From Gimesia fumaroli (lineage in GTDB: Bacteria > Planctomycetota > Planctomycetia > Planctomycetales > Planctomycetaceae): a stretch of DNA of 64,000 bases. Positions 26,622 through 32,886 of the stretch are shown piece by piece (the first letter of the stretch is position 1; each line of letters begins with the position of its first letter). The DNA is taken from the NCBI RefSeq assembly GCF_007754425.1, contig NZ_CP037452.1, positions 1,996,664 through 2,060,663 on the forward strand. The letters run 5' to 3'. Under the pieces are notes generated by a model that worked only from the letters and a program-made list of their open reading frames with translations, ran no database searches and had not been told where the DNA came from. The translations under genes and the position numbers were made by a program.

Positions 26622-27038
26622 TTACCCGTTGTCCGTGATCACGTCGGGCATGGTTTCGCCGGTGGGAATGAACTTCATTGAAATCGAATTGACACAGTGC
26701 CGTGTGTTTTTTTCGGTCATGCGCTCGCCGAGGAAAACATGACCCAGGTGACCGCCGCAGTTATGACAGACAATTTCAGTGCGAAAACCGTCTGCATCGG
26801 GAATGCGATCGACGGCACCTGGCAGTTCATCGTCAAAGCTGGGCCAGCCGCAATGGCTTTCGAACTTGTCTTTACTGCGATACAGGGGGGCGTTGCAGCG
26901 GCGGCAAATAAATGTACCGGCTGCTTTCAGGTTCGTGTATTCGCCGAAAAAAGGCTGCTCGGTTCCTTTATGCAGGATCACACGGGCTTCTTCGGGAGTG
27001 AGTTCATTATAGTTTGTTTCGGACGATTCCGATTCCAT
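26622..27038 (-). CDS. msrB: Peptide-methionine (R)-S-oxide reductase MsrB
   Basis: A 138-residue MsrB. It reduces the R epimer of methionine sulfoxide in proteins. Zinc-binding CxxC pairs are present ([11 protein letters not shown] and [14 protein letters not shown]), and the catalytic Cys is in [11 protein letters not shown], matching the family's R-Y-C-x-N-S/A. The start ([14 protein letters not shown]) covers the usual first strand region. The frame extends to a TTG at 27074, but the ATG at 27038 avoids overlap with the upstream methyltransferase gene, which ends 33 bp before it. The two genes are probably cotranscribed. Cytoplasmic; no signal peptide. Confidence 0.95.
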
Positions 27039-27070
27039 CAGCGAGTTCCAATAATAGGGAATGTGGTCGA

Positions 27071-28156
27071 TCAAAGTCGGGTGAGTAACGCGGCAATTGA
27101 GATAAAATGAAACTCGTATCGCTCGGGATGGTCGACGAGCAGTCGTTCCATGCGTTGATAAATTTTCTCGATCGTATTTTCCTGTGGCAAGTCTTCCGGG
27201 AGGGCGGCTGCAAGAACCGGTTCCGTAAAGGCTCGCTGAAAACTGATATAGCTATGAGCCCAGGTTTCCCGATCACCGGTCTCGTCAAACGCCGTATTGA
27301 ACGGCACGGGAACATCGCGTGATTCCGCGTGTTCGATGCGATAGGCGGCTGCCAGTTCCGGTTCGTTCTGGATGGGCGCCGTCAGTTCTTCGATATCGCG
27401 ATAATAAGCGGGAAAGAGAAAGTCTTCATAAAAACTGCGGGGCAGCATATCTGCTTCGACGAAATCCAACAATGCATCACTGAGAACATCCATCAGCCCG
27501 TGGCCCGTTGATTGCGTTTCGTTCTTCCCAAAGATCTGGACCAGCAGCTTACCGCCGGGAACCAGTTCCTCGGCCCGTGCTGCGTAAAAGTGGCTTAGAT
27601 CCTGATAGGCCTGTTTCTGGAATGGAATTAGTTCGCTGGCGGTAACTTCGACTCCTTCACGCGGTGCACCGGGATTGGGTTGCATGGCCAGGACAAAGCC
27701 TGGCAGCTGTGCCTCTGGTCTGGTTTCGAAGAACCCGATGGCGTTAAATGTCGTCGCCAGATGCAGGCTGCAGGGAGGCACGAGTCGTCCAAACGCGGAC
27801 CCACCGATGGCGGCAGTATAGACGTCGGTTGCTGAAAGAGCGGGAGTCGATTCAGGAAACAGATTCGAAAACATCTGATTAAAATCGTTGGTGGGTAGAT
27901 CATCAAACAGCGCCCAGACAGGTAAATCTGACTGGCGGCGTACGATCTCAATCAGGTGATTCATCGTGTAGATCGCGTTGGCTCCCTCGGAAGAGCCGAT
28001 ATCGAGAAAGTTCCACGAATACTGATGTATGGCTGGATCGGGCAGGGCGGCGATCGCTTCTTCGAGCCAGGGGAGAAACGCATCGGAAGCAGAACGCTGC
28101 TCTTTTGAGTTGGCATCGTAATAACCGCCCCCCTTCATCCCGGTCGTTGTGGGCAT
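27071..28156 (-). CDS. SABATH-type SAM-dependent carboxyl methyltransferase
   Basis: A 361-residue methyltransferase with the landmark motifs of the SABATH family, known best from plants: [15 protein letters not shown] at the N-terminus (substrate/SAM lid), [15 protein letters not shown] (SAM-binding motif I), [16 protein letters not shown] (the plant LNDLPGNDFN block), and [18 protein letters not shown], ending at FFETR. These enzymes methylate carboxyl groups of small acids such as salicylate, jasmonate, or indole acetate. Aromatic residues after SLHL set substrate choice, but the substrate cannot be read here. The ATG at 28156 has AGGA nine bases upstream. It is followed by msrB. Confidence 0.85.
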
Positions 28157-28549
28157 AATTGTTGATCCTGTTTCTGAATTGAGCCACGCGGCTGTCACGG
28201 TGTTTTAAAGGATATGTGTATGAAGCTTCAATTTTTAATCCGCTGCATTTGTTGATTAAAGTGTATCGCATGCCAGGCTTTGATTCCATAAATGCAATGA
28301 CCTTGTTCCGCGAATCTTGGTGAAGAGAGACGCTCAAATGGGGGCAGGTCGAGGATTTCACTCTGCACAGCTATTTTGTTTCCCATTTTCACCAAATTGA
28401 GTCTGTTCGATTCATAAACTCTGATCAGTTAAGACTTTCTCAATGGCTCACGGTTGTGGCTTGTGCATAACGAATCCATGAACAGTGTCTGCAAGAAACC
28501 CCTCAAACTGAAAGTTTTTTTGACCAGTTGAATCGGAGATGGTAAATTA
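28157..28549. other. Intergenic region upstream of methyltransferase and small ORFs
   Basis: About 390 bp between divergent units. No gene longer than 40 codons with a ribosome binding site is supported. A poly-T stretch (AAAGTTTTTTTGACC) lies near 28511-28525. Promoters for both directions are expected, but none is distinct. Confidence 0.4.
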
Positions 28550-28693
28550 GTGACAGCAATTCAAAGCGTTCTGATTTCATTTCCGATTGATCGCGACAAT
28601 TTCAAACAGGGGTGGTCTCGTTTAATCAGTCGAGTCACAAAGGGGCGACTTACGGATGTTGTCTCTTTGCGTATTGAAGGAGGCTCTGTATGA
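28550..28693 (+). CDS. Possible 47-codon leader ORF coupled to the next gene
   Basis: A GTG at 28550 preceded by GGAG at about 10 bases opens a 47-codon frame that ends in TGA at 28691-28693, overlapping the ATG of the next gene by four bases (ATGA). The predicted peptide (start VTAIQSVLISFPIDRD) is mixed in composition, not hydrophobic. The tight overlap suggests a translated and coupled short protein or leader. It is below the usual size cut-off, and coding bias cannot be judged at this length. Confidence 0.35.
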   Translation: MTAIQSVLISFPIDRDNFKQGWSRLISRVTKGRLTDVVSLRIEGGSV

Positions 28694-29151
28694 CCAGAAA
28701 AAACTCAGGCATTGTGAATGGCGCCTTGGAAGAAATTTCCGCACTGGAATATATTCTGTTAGGCGACCTGCTGGATTTACTGGAAGAATCTGATGGCGAT
28801 GCGGGCGCCTGGAAATGGATTTCCCAGGTACTGGATACGCTTTTGAAAATGATGCCACGTGAATTCGAATTGCAGGACGAAGGGGGCTACCTGGAAGAAG
28901 TCCTTGAAGAACAACCGAACTGGCAGGGGCATGTTCGAAATCTGTATCAGGAACGCTGTGACTTATTGAAGAAGCTGAATGAGTTACAGGTTCGCATGCA
29001 GGATTCTCAGCCATTACATCAGATGCGCCGCATTGCCGGCGAGCTCAGACACGAACTCCGCGACTGGATCACCAGCTATATCGCCCACCAGCGCCACGAG
29101 CGTCGTATTATCCAAGACGCCTTCAACAGCGACATTGGTGCTGCCGACTGA
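28690..29151 (+). CDS. Small helical acidic protein, function unknown
   Basis: A 153-residue cytoplasmic protein with a strong ribosome binding site (AGGAGG seven bases upstream). It is nearly all helix: EEISALEYILLGDLLDLLEES, KWISQVLDTLLKMM, NLYQERCDLLKKLNELQ, and a C-terminal helix LRDWITSYIAHQRHERRIIQ ending DAFNSDIGAAD. The four-helix layout with His residues in HQRHERR recalls hemerythrin-like folds, but the full set of metal ligands is not visible, so no function is claimed. The short ORF upstream is coupled by ATGA. Confidence 0.65.
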   Translation: MTRKNSGIVNGALEEISALEYILLGDLLDLLEESDGDAGAWKWISQVLDTLLKMMPREFELQDEGGYLEEVLEEQPNWQGHVRNLYQERCDLLKKLNELQVRMQDSQPLHQMRRIAGELRHELRDWITSYIAHQRHERRIIQDAFNSDIGAAD

Positions 29152-29633: not shown

Positions 29634-30113
29634 TTACTTTTCAAAGTCGTACACAAATACATTGATCTTTGCAGCGCAGAGAGTTTGTTGGATCAGCGGT
29701 TCTATTTTGTCCCATTTGCCGCCGGCCAGACCGCAGCCGATGCGCGGCATGTGGACAGAGGCCGAGAGTTCTTCGGCTTTCTCGGCGACGGAGGTCAGAC
29801 ATTGTTCGATGGCCGGATAGCGGACTGGCGGGCCTTTGCTGCCGGTTTTCATGCCGCGCTGACCTAGCATATTGGCGACCCAGATGTACCGGTCGACTTG
29901 CACGAACTGAACTTCACCCAGACCGAAGTTGTTTTTGGCCCGGCTGCGATGCCACTGGCGATATTCTGTTTCCGGTTCGGGCCAGCGGTTGCTGATTGCC
30001 AGTACGAAGCCTTCGCCCCAGCCACCCAGGTCATTACAGATATGGGCAATGATCTTGTTTCCTTTGGCTTGCGGCTGGGTAGCATCGCCTTTCAGATAGG
30101 TGATCTCGGTCAT
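29634..30113 (-). CDS. Macrodomain protein (TARG1/Poa1p-like ADP-ribose hydrolase type)
   Basis: A 159-residue single macrodomain. Start: EITYLKGDATQPQ (adenine-contact Asp in GDAT), then IIAHICNDLGGWGEGFVLAIS, split here as HICND and GGWGEGFV, which is the distal-ribose loop, VANMLGQ, and the phosphate loop MPRIGCGLAGGKW. Such proteins bind or remove ADP-ribose from proteins, nucleic acids, or O-acetyl-ADP-ribose. The ATG overlaps the stop of the upstream solute-binding lipoprotein (ATGA). It is the last gene of the minus-strand run that begins with a Y-family polymerase. A role in repairing ADP-ribosylated DNA or protein is inference. Confidence 0.88.
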   Translation of the reverse strand: MTEITYLKGDATQPQAKGNKIIAHICNDLGGWGEGFVLAISNRWPEPETEYRQWHRSRAKNNFGLGEVQFVQVDRYIWVANMLGQRGMKTGSKGPPVRYPAIEQCLTSVAEKAEELSASVHMPRIGCGLAGGKWDKIEPLIQQTLCAAKINVFVYDFEK

Positions 30114-30970
30114 GGTTTGGGCTTAGAATCACAGATGGTGCTGGGCAGGTCAATCTTGTATTTCTTGAGCAGTTTGGCGTATTCGCCGCTCTCGCAGAGT
30201 TTCTTCAGGCCGGCGTTGAAGGCATCGCGGACGTCGGGTTCTTCAAAGTTGGCTTTGAAATACGTGGCTTCGGGGAAGAGGGCGTGGTATTCGACTTCAT
30301 CCAGTTGATGTCCTGTTGACTGGCTGATGGCATTGAAGATACTACGGTCAATCACGATCACGGCGTCCTTGGCCTCCCAGAACTGTCTGACCTGATCGCT
30401 CTGATCGGCGACTTCCACATAGTTCTTGCGTTGTGGGGAATCGGGAGAGAACAGTTTTTTGAATTCGGGGCCGAGTTCGAGGTAGGCGTCTTGCCAGGTG
30501 AGGACTTTGTGATCGGCCAAGTCAGCGACGGTTTCGATTTTCAGACCGGCTGATTTTTTGGTGATCGCGGAGTTCACGAAATCGATGAAGTTGTCGGAGT
30601 AGAAAATGCCTTCGACGTCTTTAAATTTCTGAACGCCGAGCGCCATGTCGGCCTGATTTTCGGCGACCGCGGACTGCAGTTTTTCATAAGGCATTTGAAC
30701 GAAATTGAGCTGATAGCTGGGGAGGGCCTGGGTGGCGATATCGACTTCGATACCGGTTTTCGCATTTTTCATGACATAGGGAGCAATATCAACGCTGATC
30801 GCGACCGTCAACTGCGGCCTGTCGGCACCTTCAATCGGTTCGGGGATGATATCGACTTCGGGGTTCGCGTCAGGAGGGGGAGGCGTCGGTGTTTTCTCTT
30901 GTCCACACGCGGTGAACAGCAGACTCAGTAGCATCAGGCATATGGCAGCGTCGACACGAAATCCGTTCAT
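30110..30970 (-). CDS. Solute-binding lipoprotein, family 3 (periplasmic amino-acid-binding fold)
   Basis: A 286-residue exported protein. A type II signal peptide ends in LLFTACGQE, with the Cys as lipid anchor, followed by a Pro-rich linker. The rest has the bacterial extracellular solute-binding (SBP_bac_3) plan: LTVAISVDIAPYV, GIEVDIATQAL, YEKLQSAVAENQADMALG and FNAGLKKLCESGEYAKLLKKY. No permease or ATPase gene is nearby, so it is an orphan receptor. The start has AGGAGA eight bases upstream. Its stop overlaps the cytosolic macrodomain gene by four bases, an odd coupling of a periplasmic with a cytosolic protein. Ligand unknown. Confidence 0.85.
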   Translation of the reverse strand: MNGFRVDAAICLMLLSLLFTACGQEKTPTPPPPDANPEVDIIPEPIEGADRPQLTVAISVDIAPYVMKNAKTGIEVDIATQALPSYQLNFVQMPYEKLQSAVAENQADMALGVQKFKDVEGIFYSDNFIDFVNSAITKKSAGLKIETVADLADHKVLTWQDAYLELGPEFKKLFSPDSPQRKNYVEVADQSDQVRQFWEAKDAVIVIDRSIFNAISQSTGHQLDEVEYHALFPEATYFKANFEEPDVRDAFNAGLKKLCESGEYAKLLKKYKIDLPSTICDSKPKP

Positions 30971-31050
30971 CGTCTTTTCTCCTGAGTAATGGGAATTTGC
31001 TGGAGTATATCGCGTGAGGGGCGTCTACTCAATAGCTTCGTTTTCGTTGG

Positions 31051-31521
31051 TCAAATCTGTTCGCCCAGAAAGACCGGTTCGCGGTGATAGCCGGTCATGA
31101 CCTGGTAGTAGTGGGACGCGGGTTGCAGGATCAGATAGACATAGGGTTGTTCGTGCTGGTCGTGGATGATGGTGCCTTGGATGCCTTCTCTGATCTGAAA
31201 CCAGACACCCCGTTCCAGGCCGAAGTTCGCCAGAATTTCAACTGGTTCCGGGGCATACATGGACCAGGCGCCGGACTGAAGCGTCGAAACTTCACACCAC
31301 CAGGCGAGGGGGGCGTTGCAGTTTCGCTGCCGATTGCCCCAGGGAAGGATTTGCAATTCGCCTTGATAAAAGACGGGGAGTAACGGGCGCCGATGCCGTT
31401 GCAGAAACAGGATTTCTTTTTCCGCTGTTTCGGAACGCTGAATGATGCGTTCTTCCAGTTGGTATTTTCGAATCAGTCTGGTGGGGATGTCCCGCCAGGC
31501 AAGGGTAATTCCGGTACACAT
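31051..31521 (-). CDS. SRAP-like (HMCES/YedK-related) protein coupled to Y-family polymerase
   Basis: A 156-residue protein beginning Met-Cys (MCTGITLAW). The ATG overlaps the polymerase stop (TGATG), so Cys2 becomes N-terminal after Met removal. In SRAP proteins this Cys2 forms a covalent link to abasic sites in single-stranded DNA. Other segments that fit a diverged SRAP fold: RPLLPVFYQGELQILPWGN (compare the PV...WG region), LERGVWFQIREG, and the ending YHREPVFL, resembling HxRMPV. The usual catalytic Glu of the GFYEW motif is not evident, and the protein is shorter than the normal 200-220. Together with translational coupling to a translesion polymerase this points to abasic-site handling; the family call is inference. 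Confidence 0.55.
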   Translation of the reverse strand: MCTGITLAWRDIPTRLIRKYQLEERIIQRSETAEKEILFLQRHRRPLLPVFYQGELQILPWGNRQRNCNAPLAWWCEVSTLQSGAWSMYAPEPVEILANFGLERGVWFQIREGIQGTIIHDQHEQPYVYLILQPASHYYQVMTGYHREPVFLGEQI

Positions 31522-32738
31522 CAGAAGCACATTTTTCCTGAAATATCACAGATGTCATAGTTATGTGTCGCATCATGATAGATCTCATGCAGCGGCAGTG
31601 TCTCGGCACTGCGGATCGCAAACCGGCCCAGTTTTTGATTGATGTCGCGTTTGAGTTGATCGAGGGGGCTTTGTGGCTCTTCAAAAAAGAGTGATTTTTG
31701 AATCTTATCCCGCCAGGTCAAGTTTTCGGCAATGATGTGCATGTGACTGACGGGGTGGCTCGTCGGTGCCGCGGCAAGCATCGGCATGACGGCATCGTAG
31801 ATGGTACGAAACGAAGCAGAGGGGACTGCCAGGGGAGTTCGGCCGAGCCAGAGTGCCGTTTTGTTGGCATCGATCTGCAGACTGATATGACCGGCATAGA
31901 CACGGTGATGATCAAGGGCTTCGATCAGGCGTTCGATATTTCGAACGGCCCAGGCGCGAATGCGATCCGGGTCCATGGTCTTCCCACCACAGGATCCGCC
32001 ACGGGCAATGGCCTTGTGGGGCGGTCGGGAGGTTTGAATCGGATTGATCGCATCGCCCCGGAGTTCCCACCAGAGGGCTTCGCCTTTAATCGTGAGCAGA
32101 TTACGAATCATCAACCGATCTGCCTGGCGGTAATCCCAGCAGGTGCGAATATTTCTGTCGTGCAGTTTTTTGGCGCTGCGGCTGCCGATGCCGCACAGTT
32201 CGCCGACTGGCTGTGAGCGGAGAAACGATTCACAGTCCTTTTCAATCACACGCACGCCGAACGGTTTGGAGGCATCGCTGCCGAGCTTGGCCAGGGTGCG
32301 TGCGGGGGCGATGCCGATCGAAACGGGGACGCCGATCTGATCCTGAACCAGCGTCTGTAGTGCGCGGGTAGCTGCTTCCAGGGGGAGTTGAAAATGCCGC
32401 GAAAGCTCGGAAGCATCAAAAAACATTTCATCAATGCTGTAGTACTCGACCAGCGGGCTGACGGTTTTGAGCAGGTCCAGCAATTTTCGGGAGATGACTT
32501 CGTACCAGCGAAAATCCCGCTTCACAAAGACGGCGTGCGGGCAGAGTTTTTTGGCTTCCCAGATCGGGTGTCCGGTTTTGACGCCGTAGGATTTGAGCTC
32601 GTAGCTCTTGGCAATGACGCACGCTCCCTGGTTTCCCAGGACGCCACAAGGGACTCCGCGCAGACTGTGAGATCTGATTCTTTCACAGCTTACGTAGAAA
32701 CAATCCGCGTCAATATGTCCAATTAAACTAGTGCCCAT
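31521..32738 (-). CDS. Y-family translesion DNA polymerase (DinB/UmuC type)
   Basis: A 405-residue polymerase. Catalytic carboxylates are present: Asp10 in HIDADCFYVSCER and Asp103-Glu104 in YYSIDEMFF. Finger/thumb segments: VSIGIAPARTLAKLGS and LCGIGSRSAKKLHDRNIRT (helix-hairpin-helix). Near residue 347 the segment QKSLFF fits a beta-clamp-binding motif. It inserts bases opposite damaged template. It heads a minus-strand run with the SRAP-like gene (overlapping stop and start), and then a solute-binding lipoprotein and macrodomain. No clear ribosome binding site precedes the ATG at 32738; a palindrome lies 28 bp upstream. LexA or another damage regulator could control it. Confidence 0.92.
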   Translation of the reverse strand: MGTSLIGHIDADCFYVSCERIRSHSLRGVPCGVLGNQGACVIAKSYELKSYGVKTGHPIWEAKKLCPHAVFVKRDFRWYEVISRKLLDLLKTVSPLVEYYSIDEMFFDASELSRHFQLPLEAATRALQTLVQDQIGVPVSIGIAPARTLAKLGSDASKPFGVRVIEKDCESFLRSQPVGELCGIGSRSAKKLHDRNIRTCWDYRQADRLMIRNLLTIKGEALWWELRGDAINPIQTSRPPHKAIARGGSCGGKTMDPDRIRAWAVRNIERLIEALDHHRVYAGHISLQIDANKTALWLGRTPLAVPSASFRTIYDAVMPMLAAAPTSHPVSHMHIIAENLTWRDKIQKSLFFEEPQSPLDQLKRDINQKLGRFAIRSAETLPLHEIYHDATHNYDICDISGKMCF

Positions 32739-32758: not shown

Positions 32759-32784
32759 ATTATGGAATACTACTGAACAGTATT
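32759..32784 (-). promoter_or_regulatory. Palindrome at the polymerase promoter, candidate damage-response operator
   Basis: TACTG and CAGTA are separated by two bases (TACTGAACAGTA on the plus strand), inside a wider AATACT...AGTATT inverted repeat at 32766-32784. On the minus strand a possible -10 CATAAT (32764-32759) follows it. The half-sites match the outer parts of the enterobacterial LexA box, but with a 2-bp instead of 10-bp spacer. It is placed where a repressor would block RNA polymerase. Confidence 0.4.
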
Positions 32785-32886
32785 GAGGTTTTCGTTGCGA
32801 TTCTGTTAGGGAAACCAGGGGTAATGTCAGGTTTCGTATTGGCGAGTTTTACTGTATCGGGCGGCGTCAAAATGAACTGTTTGAAG

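Follow-up and report, generated by a model that had tools for sequence, protein, structure and literature searches.

Do four closely spaced genes on the minus strand of a Gimesia chromosome encode a single response to damaged DNA, or do they belong to separate systems that happen to adjoin? The locus lies within a stretch of 64,000 nucleotides (G000:C1:1996664-2060663; the whole of it is called the window here) from a planctomycete whose 7.7 Mb genome is complete. The layout given in the original prediction was borne out in its order, in its overlaps (TGATG in the first pair, ATGA in the second) and in the 80-bp gap between the pairs. The features discussed below are:

31521-32738, minus strand: Y-family polymerase, UmuC-like (405 aa; Pfam IMS and IMS_C)
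31051-31521, minus strand: SRAP-like protein (156 aa; starts MCTG, with its ATG within TGATG at 31521-31519)
30110-30970, minus strand: orphan solute-binding lipoprotein, SBP family 3 (286 aa; SBP_bac_3 match, lipobox LFTAC)
29634-30113, minus strand: macrodomain of the SCO6735 type, ALC1-like class (159 aa; PDB 5e3b match)
31004-31032, minus strand: promoter-like site TTGAGT-N17-TATACT from a promoter scan, in the 80-bp gap and assigned to the lipoprotein gene
32773-32787, minus strand: conserved element ACTGTTCAGTAGTAT, ~35-50 bases 5' of the polymerase ATG

Pairwise dN/dS values of 0.05-0.15 between Gimesia species indicate purifying selection on all four genes, so each is considered real. 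Nearby in the window are a gene for a conserved 153-aa protein (28690-29151, plus strand), convergent with the macrodomain gene and with a sub-threshold hemerythrin match (E 0.009), and a gene for a SABATH-type carboxyl methyltransferase (PF03492, 8.5e-37; 27071-28198, minus strand), a family known best from plants. The latter overlaps, in an ATGA-like manner, a methionine-R-sulfoxide reductase gene (26622-27074, minus strand), and this pair is kept in Gimesia.

Two gene pairs at one locus

The original prediction treated the four genes as one set, and comparison across Gimesia speaks against this on several counts. The spacer between the two pairs varies from 80 to ~1060 bp; it holds a whole gene in G005 and G013, and a small reading frame in G014, whose proteins are 97% identical. 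G005, G013, G011 and G004 share a related gene (L126, L127, L125 and L131) that lies either in the spacer or downstream of the polymerase pair. Immediately 5' of the lipoprotein gene, 70 bases retain the arrangement TTGA-N17-TATACT-N-AGGAG, with AGGAG as the ribosome site, in 12 of 12 Gimesia while sequence farther upstream diverges, and this arrangement stays with the lipoprotein gene where other genes separate the pairs. It therefore looks like an independent promoter of the lipoprotein and macrodomain genes, as predicted from its conservation. A scan found no terminator between the two pairs, so transcriptional read-through across all four genes is possible.

The other conserved element, the 15-base ACTGTTCAGTAGTAT, is found upstream of the polymerase gene in most Gimesia and is possibly an operator or a promoter part of that gene. 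It has one exact match in the genome, no excess over a reversed control, and was not seen upstream of the genome's eight LexA-like genes or, in the Gimesia comparison, upstream of the lipoprotein gene. The lack of excess and of placement before LexA-like genes gave no support to its being an SOS box, though damage control is possible, and these searches likewise gave no sequence support for shared damage induction of the four genes. The eight proteins with a LexA DNA-binding domain (L242-L249) include several that are too short to contain a peptidase domain.

The phylogenetic distribution of the second pair also separates it from the first. The lipoprotein and macrodomain genes are adjacent, and downstream of the polymerase pair, in 11 of 17 Gimesia genomes, an arrangement that at this place is confined to the genus. 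Neither gene is present beside the intact polymerase and SRAP-like genes in G002, G003 and G004, or at any polymerase/SRAP-like locus outside Gimesia; G016 is too incomplete for their presence to be judged. In other genera, homologues of the lipoprotein and the macrodomain sit apart from each other, in other locations.

The locus is thus read as two adjacent, independently expressed gene pairs and not as one system, with a probability of about 0.86. That the four genes lie on one strand and are all kept in most Gimesia points toward linkage. The idea of four-gene unity has nevertheless run into genes that are located elsewhere in relatives, a separate promoter for the second pair and, as judged from sequence, no shared damage element.

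The lipoprotein and macrodomain genes

The product of the third gene matches SBP_bac_3 in Pfam (1.7e-9). The macrodomain barely exceeds the Pfam Macro cut-off (22.2 vs 22 bits), and its best match among solved structures is SCO6735 from Streptomyces coelicolor (PDB 5e3b), to which it aligns over its whole length (157 residues, E 4e-72). That enzyme releases ADP-ribose from thymidine and also acts on glutamate-linked protein ADP-ribose (PMC9411070). The residues tested or highlighted in that protein (Gln85, Asn27, Val/Ile25, Lys89 and Gly128; PMC9411070) are all retained in the Gimesia macrodomain with the same numbering (I25, N27, Q85, K89 and G128), consistent with the predicted role in removing ADP-ribose from protein or nucleic acid. 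The two differ in that the Gimesia protein, known here by its sequence, is encoded next to a lipoprotein gene, a different neighbour. A DarTG toxin-antitoxin system was ruled out, since a search of all 17 Gimesia genomes for the DarT toxin (PF14487) found none; PADLOC reported a weak DarG match only.

Among 99 genomes searched, relatives of the lipoprotein were found in 12 of the 17 Gimesia and in only three others. Most of the lipoprotein-bearing Gimesia also have the macrodomain, as do seven other genomes (59-74% identity) in which it is solitary and in unrelated surroundings. Individual losses also occur within the genus, in each case next to an intact polymerase pair: the macrodomain gene carries a disrupting stop and a frameshift in G001, one of the 11 genomes above, and is missing from G006, where the lipoprotein is present, and in G011 the lipoprotein gene has an internal deletion while the start of the macrodomain is retained (G006 and G011 are draft assemblies). 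Apparent lipoprotein pseudogenes in G006 and G010 were dismissed, as their stops are normal ones a few residues early.

These patterns raise the possibility that the lipoprotein and macrodomain genes are chance neighbours, carried as mobile or accessory cargo and unrelated in function even to each other. For each gene there is one genome in which it alone is lost, and their homologues live apart outside Gimesia, but the ATGA overlap is kept and both genes are under purifying selection in most of the genus, so that this explanation falls somewhat short of even odds. In G087, a member of another family, a different Y-family polymerase gene precedes a lipoprotein homologue by ~330 bp (L250, 2759-5121). 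This arrangement could hint at a polymerase-lipoprotein link; it was judged to be chance, as its sister genome, G064, carries the lipoprotein but not this polymerase.

The polymerase and its SRAP-like partner

The polymerase (IMS match 4.2e-40) has a complete active site, and its catalytic residues D10, D103 and E104 are shared by all 53 homologues compared. The same invariance is seen at N367, G371, R372, F373, C397, D398, K402, C404 and F405, which lie toward the C-terminus of the 405-residue protein. This region contains a clamp-type motif, Q347-x-x-L-F351 (QKSLF), a RecA-NT-like stretch at residues ~359-378 that includes the first four of these positions, and a tail, YDICDISGKMCF, with the invariant pattern YDICD..GK.CF. 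The resemblance between the polymerase stretch LDQLKRDINQKLGRFAIRSA and the start of RecA from the same genome, LTNALGQIEQAFGKGAIMKL, was judged by eye. Pfam DUF4113 was unmatched in a search with the polymerase, and a second Y-family gene elsewhere in the genome has only 28% identity to the one in the window.

The neighbouring 156-aa protein had no matches in Pfam, NCBIfam or PHROGs, and PF02586 was unmatched even at E values up to 1. As hhalign placed it against canonical SRAP over the C-terminal 23 columns only, folds were compared instead. An AF2 model built from 22 relatives (pLDDT 92.5, pTM 0.87) gave nine best Foldseek matches that were all SRAP-type chains (E 0.009-0.07), and VIA-align returned Z scores of 8.7-10.4 for every SRAP chain listed vs 2.0 for the next match. 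On the strength of these two comparisons, the assignment of a SRAP fold to the modelled protein is solid despite minimal sequence similarity. Beta-lactamase inhibitor repeats, the sole PDB-sequence profile matches of the family alignment, were set aside as a repeat artefact.

Scanning one genome per species across 84,980 species identified 67 SRAP-like loci, which are planctomycete records except for a few that are vaguely or doubtfully named. Of the 63 loci with a full-length SRAP-like gene, 54 have a polymerase of the same clade no more than 1 kb upstream and in the same orientation (a hand count); of the rest, four are head to head, one is at 2.7 kb and four are without the polymerase, two of these near contig ends. 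In the collections searched, the pair was confined to Planctomycetia, and a separate draw of 294 genomes from the phylum yielded only same-family genomes. A canonical SRAP gene adjoins the SRAP-like locus at five loci, and at L238 (G083) the polymerase, SRAP-like and canonical SRAP genes are consecutive. In the Gimesia genome itself, two distant SRAP-like paralogues that start with MCDA have no adjoining polymerase (L163, G000:C1:1942268; L165, G000:C1:5294706).

The proposal that the polymerase and SRAP-like genes form one damage-bypass unit is upheld by this conservation across Planctomycetia, and by the literature. A UmuC-like PolY with a SRAP-like subunit and RecA is one of 11 mutasome types described in a 2026 NAR paper from the Timinskas and Venclovas group, with the UmuC-like/SRAP-like association supported by AlphaFold complexes (PMC12926913). 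The pair in the window is likely a member of this type, as judged from its UmuC-like polymerase, the RecA-NT-like stretch, the small SRAP-related protein encoded next to it and the conserved pairing; the taxa, size and active-site state of the published SRAP-like group are not given in its text. Canonical DUF159/SRAP proteins have also been joined with DinB, UmuC-UmuD or ImuB-DnaE2 in SOS operons (Aravind 2013, PMC3765255). Those operons likewise have a SRAP-type gene beside a mutagenic polymerase, whereas the Gimesia version is reduced and divergent.

When set against YedK and HMCES (PF02586), the window protein shares the predicted fold over residues 2-156, Cys2 and the WG and RMP-type motifs. 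It differs from those 210-250-aa proteins in being 156 aa long, Pfam-negative and tied to one polymerase clade, in the replacement of His160, and in the uncertain placement of Asn75 and Glu105. In YedK, Cys2 and Glu105 are essential to cross-linking, and the loss of His160 carries a cost of at least tenfold, with the loss of Glu105 costing more (PMC9436759). Cys2 is found in the window protein (MCTG), and 49 of the 64 members of the family keep it; a quarter of the family has Ser, Leu, Phe, Ala or another residue in its place. The equivalent of His160 is column 145, as placed by hhalign and all three MAFFT modes, and is Ser in 32 members, His in 10, Asn in 7 and Tyr in 6; the window protein has Tyr145, so the catalytic His is absent. 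Position 103 is Glu or Asp in 58 of 64 members, and E103 of the window protein is a candidate for Glu105 through a shared IPA motif. The sequence alignments disagree on this placement, as three put the equivalent elsewhere, at a variable position. An earlier reading that Glu105 had been lost (GVWF vs GFYEW) was not upheld, because IPA-x4-E provides an alternative. The canonical SRAP active site thus appears, from the alignments, to be only partly kept in the window protein, with Cys2 present, the glutamate perhaps so and the histidine absent.

Abasic-site chemistry by this protein is possible. A stronger proposal is that it is catalytically active in cross-linking abasic sites and, in association with the polymerase, shields those encountered during bypass. 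The SRAP fold, the retention of Cys2 in Gimesia and most relatives, the possible Glu105 equivalent and the finding that all members with His145 also have Cys2 and E/D103 are in keeping with such a role. However, the window protein and half of the family have Tyr and Ser, respectively, at a position whose loss is costly in YedK, a quarter of the family lacks Cys2, the glutamate is placed elsewhere by three alignments, and a canonical SRAP protein is already encoded elsewhere in the same genome, all of which make the cross-linker proposal doubtful.

A predicted mutasome and a separate gene pair

The notion of one four-gene damage-response operon, combining abasic-site bypass, removal of ADP-ribose from DNA and sensing or import by the lipoprotein, draws on the common strand, the tight spacing in the window, the presence of all four genes in a majority of Gimesia and the UV-induced SCO6735 prototype behind a RecA-NDp damage promoter in Streptomyces (PMC9411070), but is very improbable in view of the conserved promoter of the second pair, the variable spacer with its foreign genes, the pattern of presence and loss, the scattering of the second pair outside the genus and the lack of ACTGTTCAGTAGTAT before the lipoprotein and LexA-like genes.

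With the locus read as two independent pairs, the polymerase and a dedicated small SRAP-fold subunit would be translated in coupling through TGATG. The polymerase would most likely contact RecA via its RecA-NT-like stretch and use QKSLF to bind the sliding clamp. The SRAP-like protein, as an accessory subunit in the manner of UmuD', would most likely dock both on single-stranded DNA and on the polymerase, whose invariant C-terminal tail is a possible docking site. Cys2 may also trap abasic sites covalently, an activity that would not be required family-wide. The lipoprotein and macrodomain would be expressed from their own promoter in a Gimesia-specific arrangement, with the macrodomain removing ADP-ribose from DNA thymidine or proteins and the lipoprotein binding a small solute. 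More broadly, it is tentatively proposed that a planctomycete-wide mutasome arose through the recruitment of a SRAP protein, reduced and diverging fast, as a dedicated subunit of the polymerase, and that some lineages have kept abasic-site capture while others have lost it. If this is true, a comparison of natural variants could separate cross-linking chemistry from polymerase accessory function.

The analysis removes a proposed four-gene system and puts two testable units in its place. Natural variants of the polymerase/SRAP-like pair that have or lack the catalytic Cys2 and His can serve as probes of the part played by SRAP proteins alongside translesion polymerases. In addition, the macrodomain would extend the SCO6735-type DNA ADP-ribosylhydrolases to Planctomycetes.
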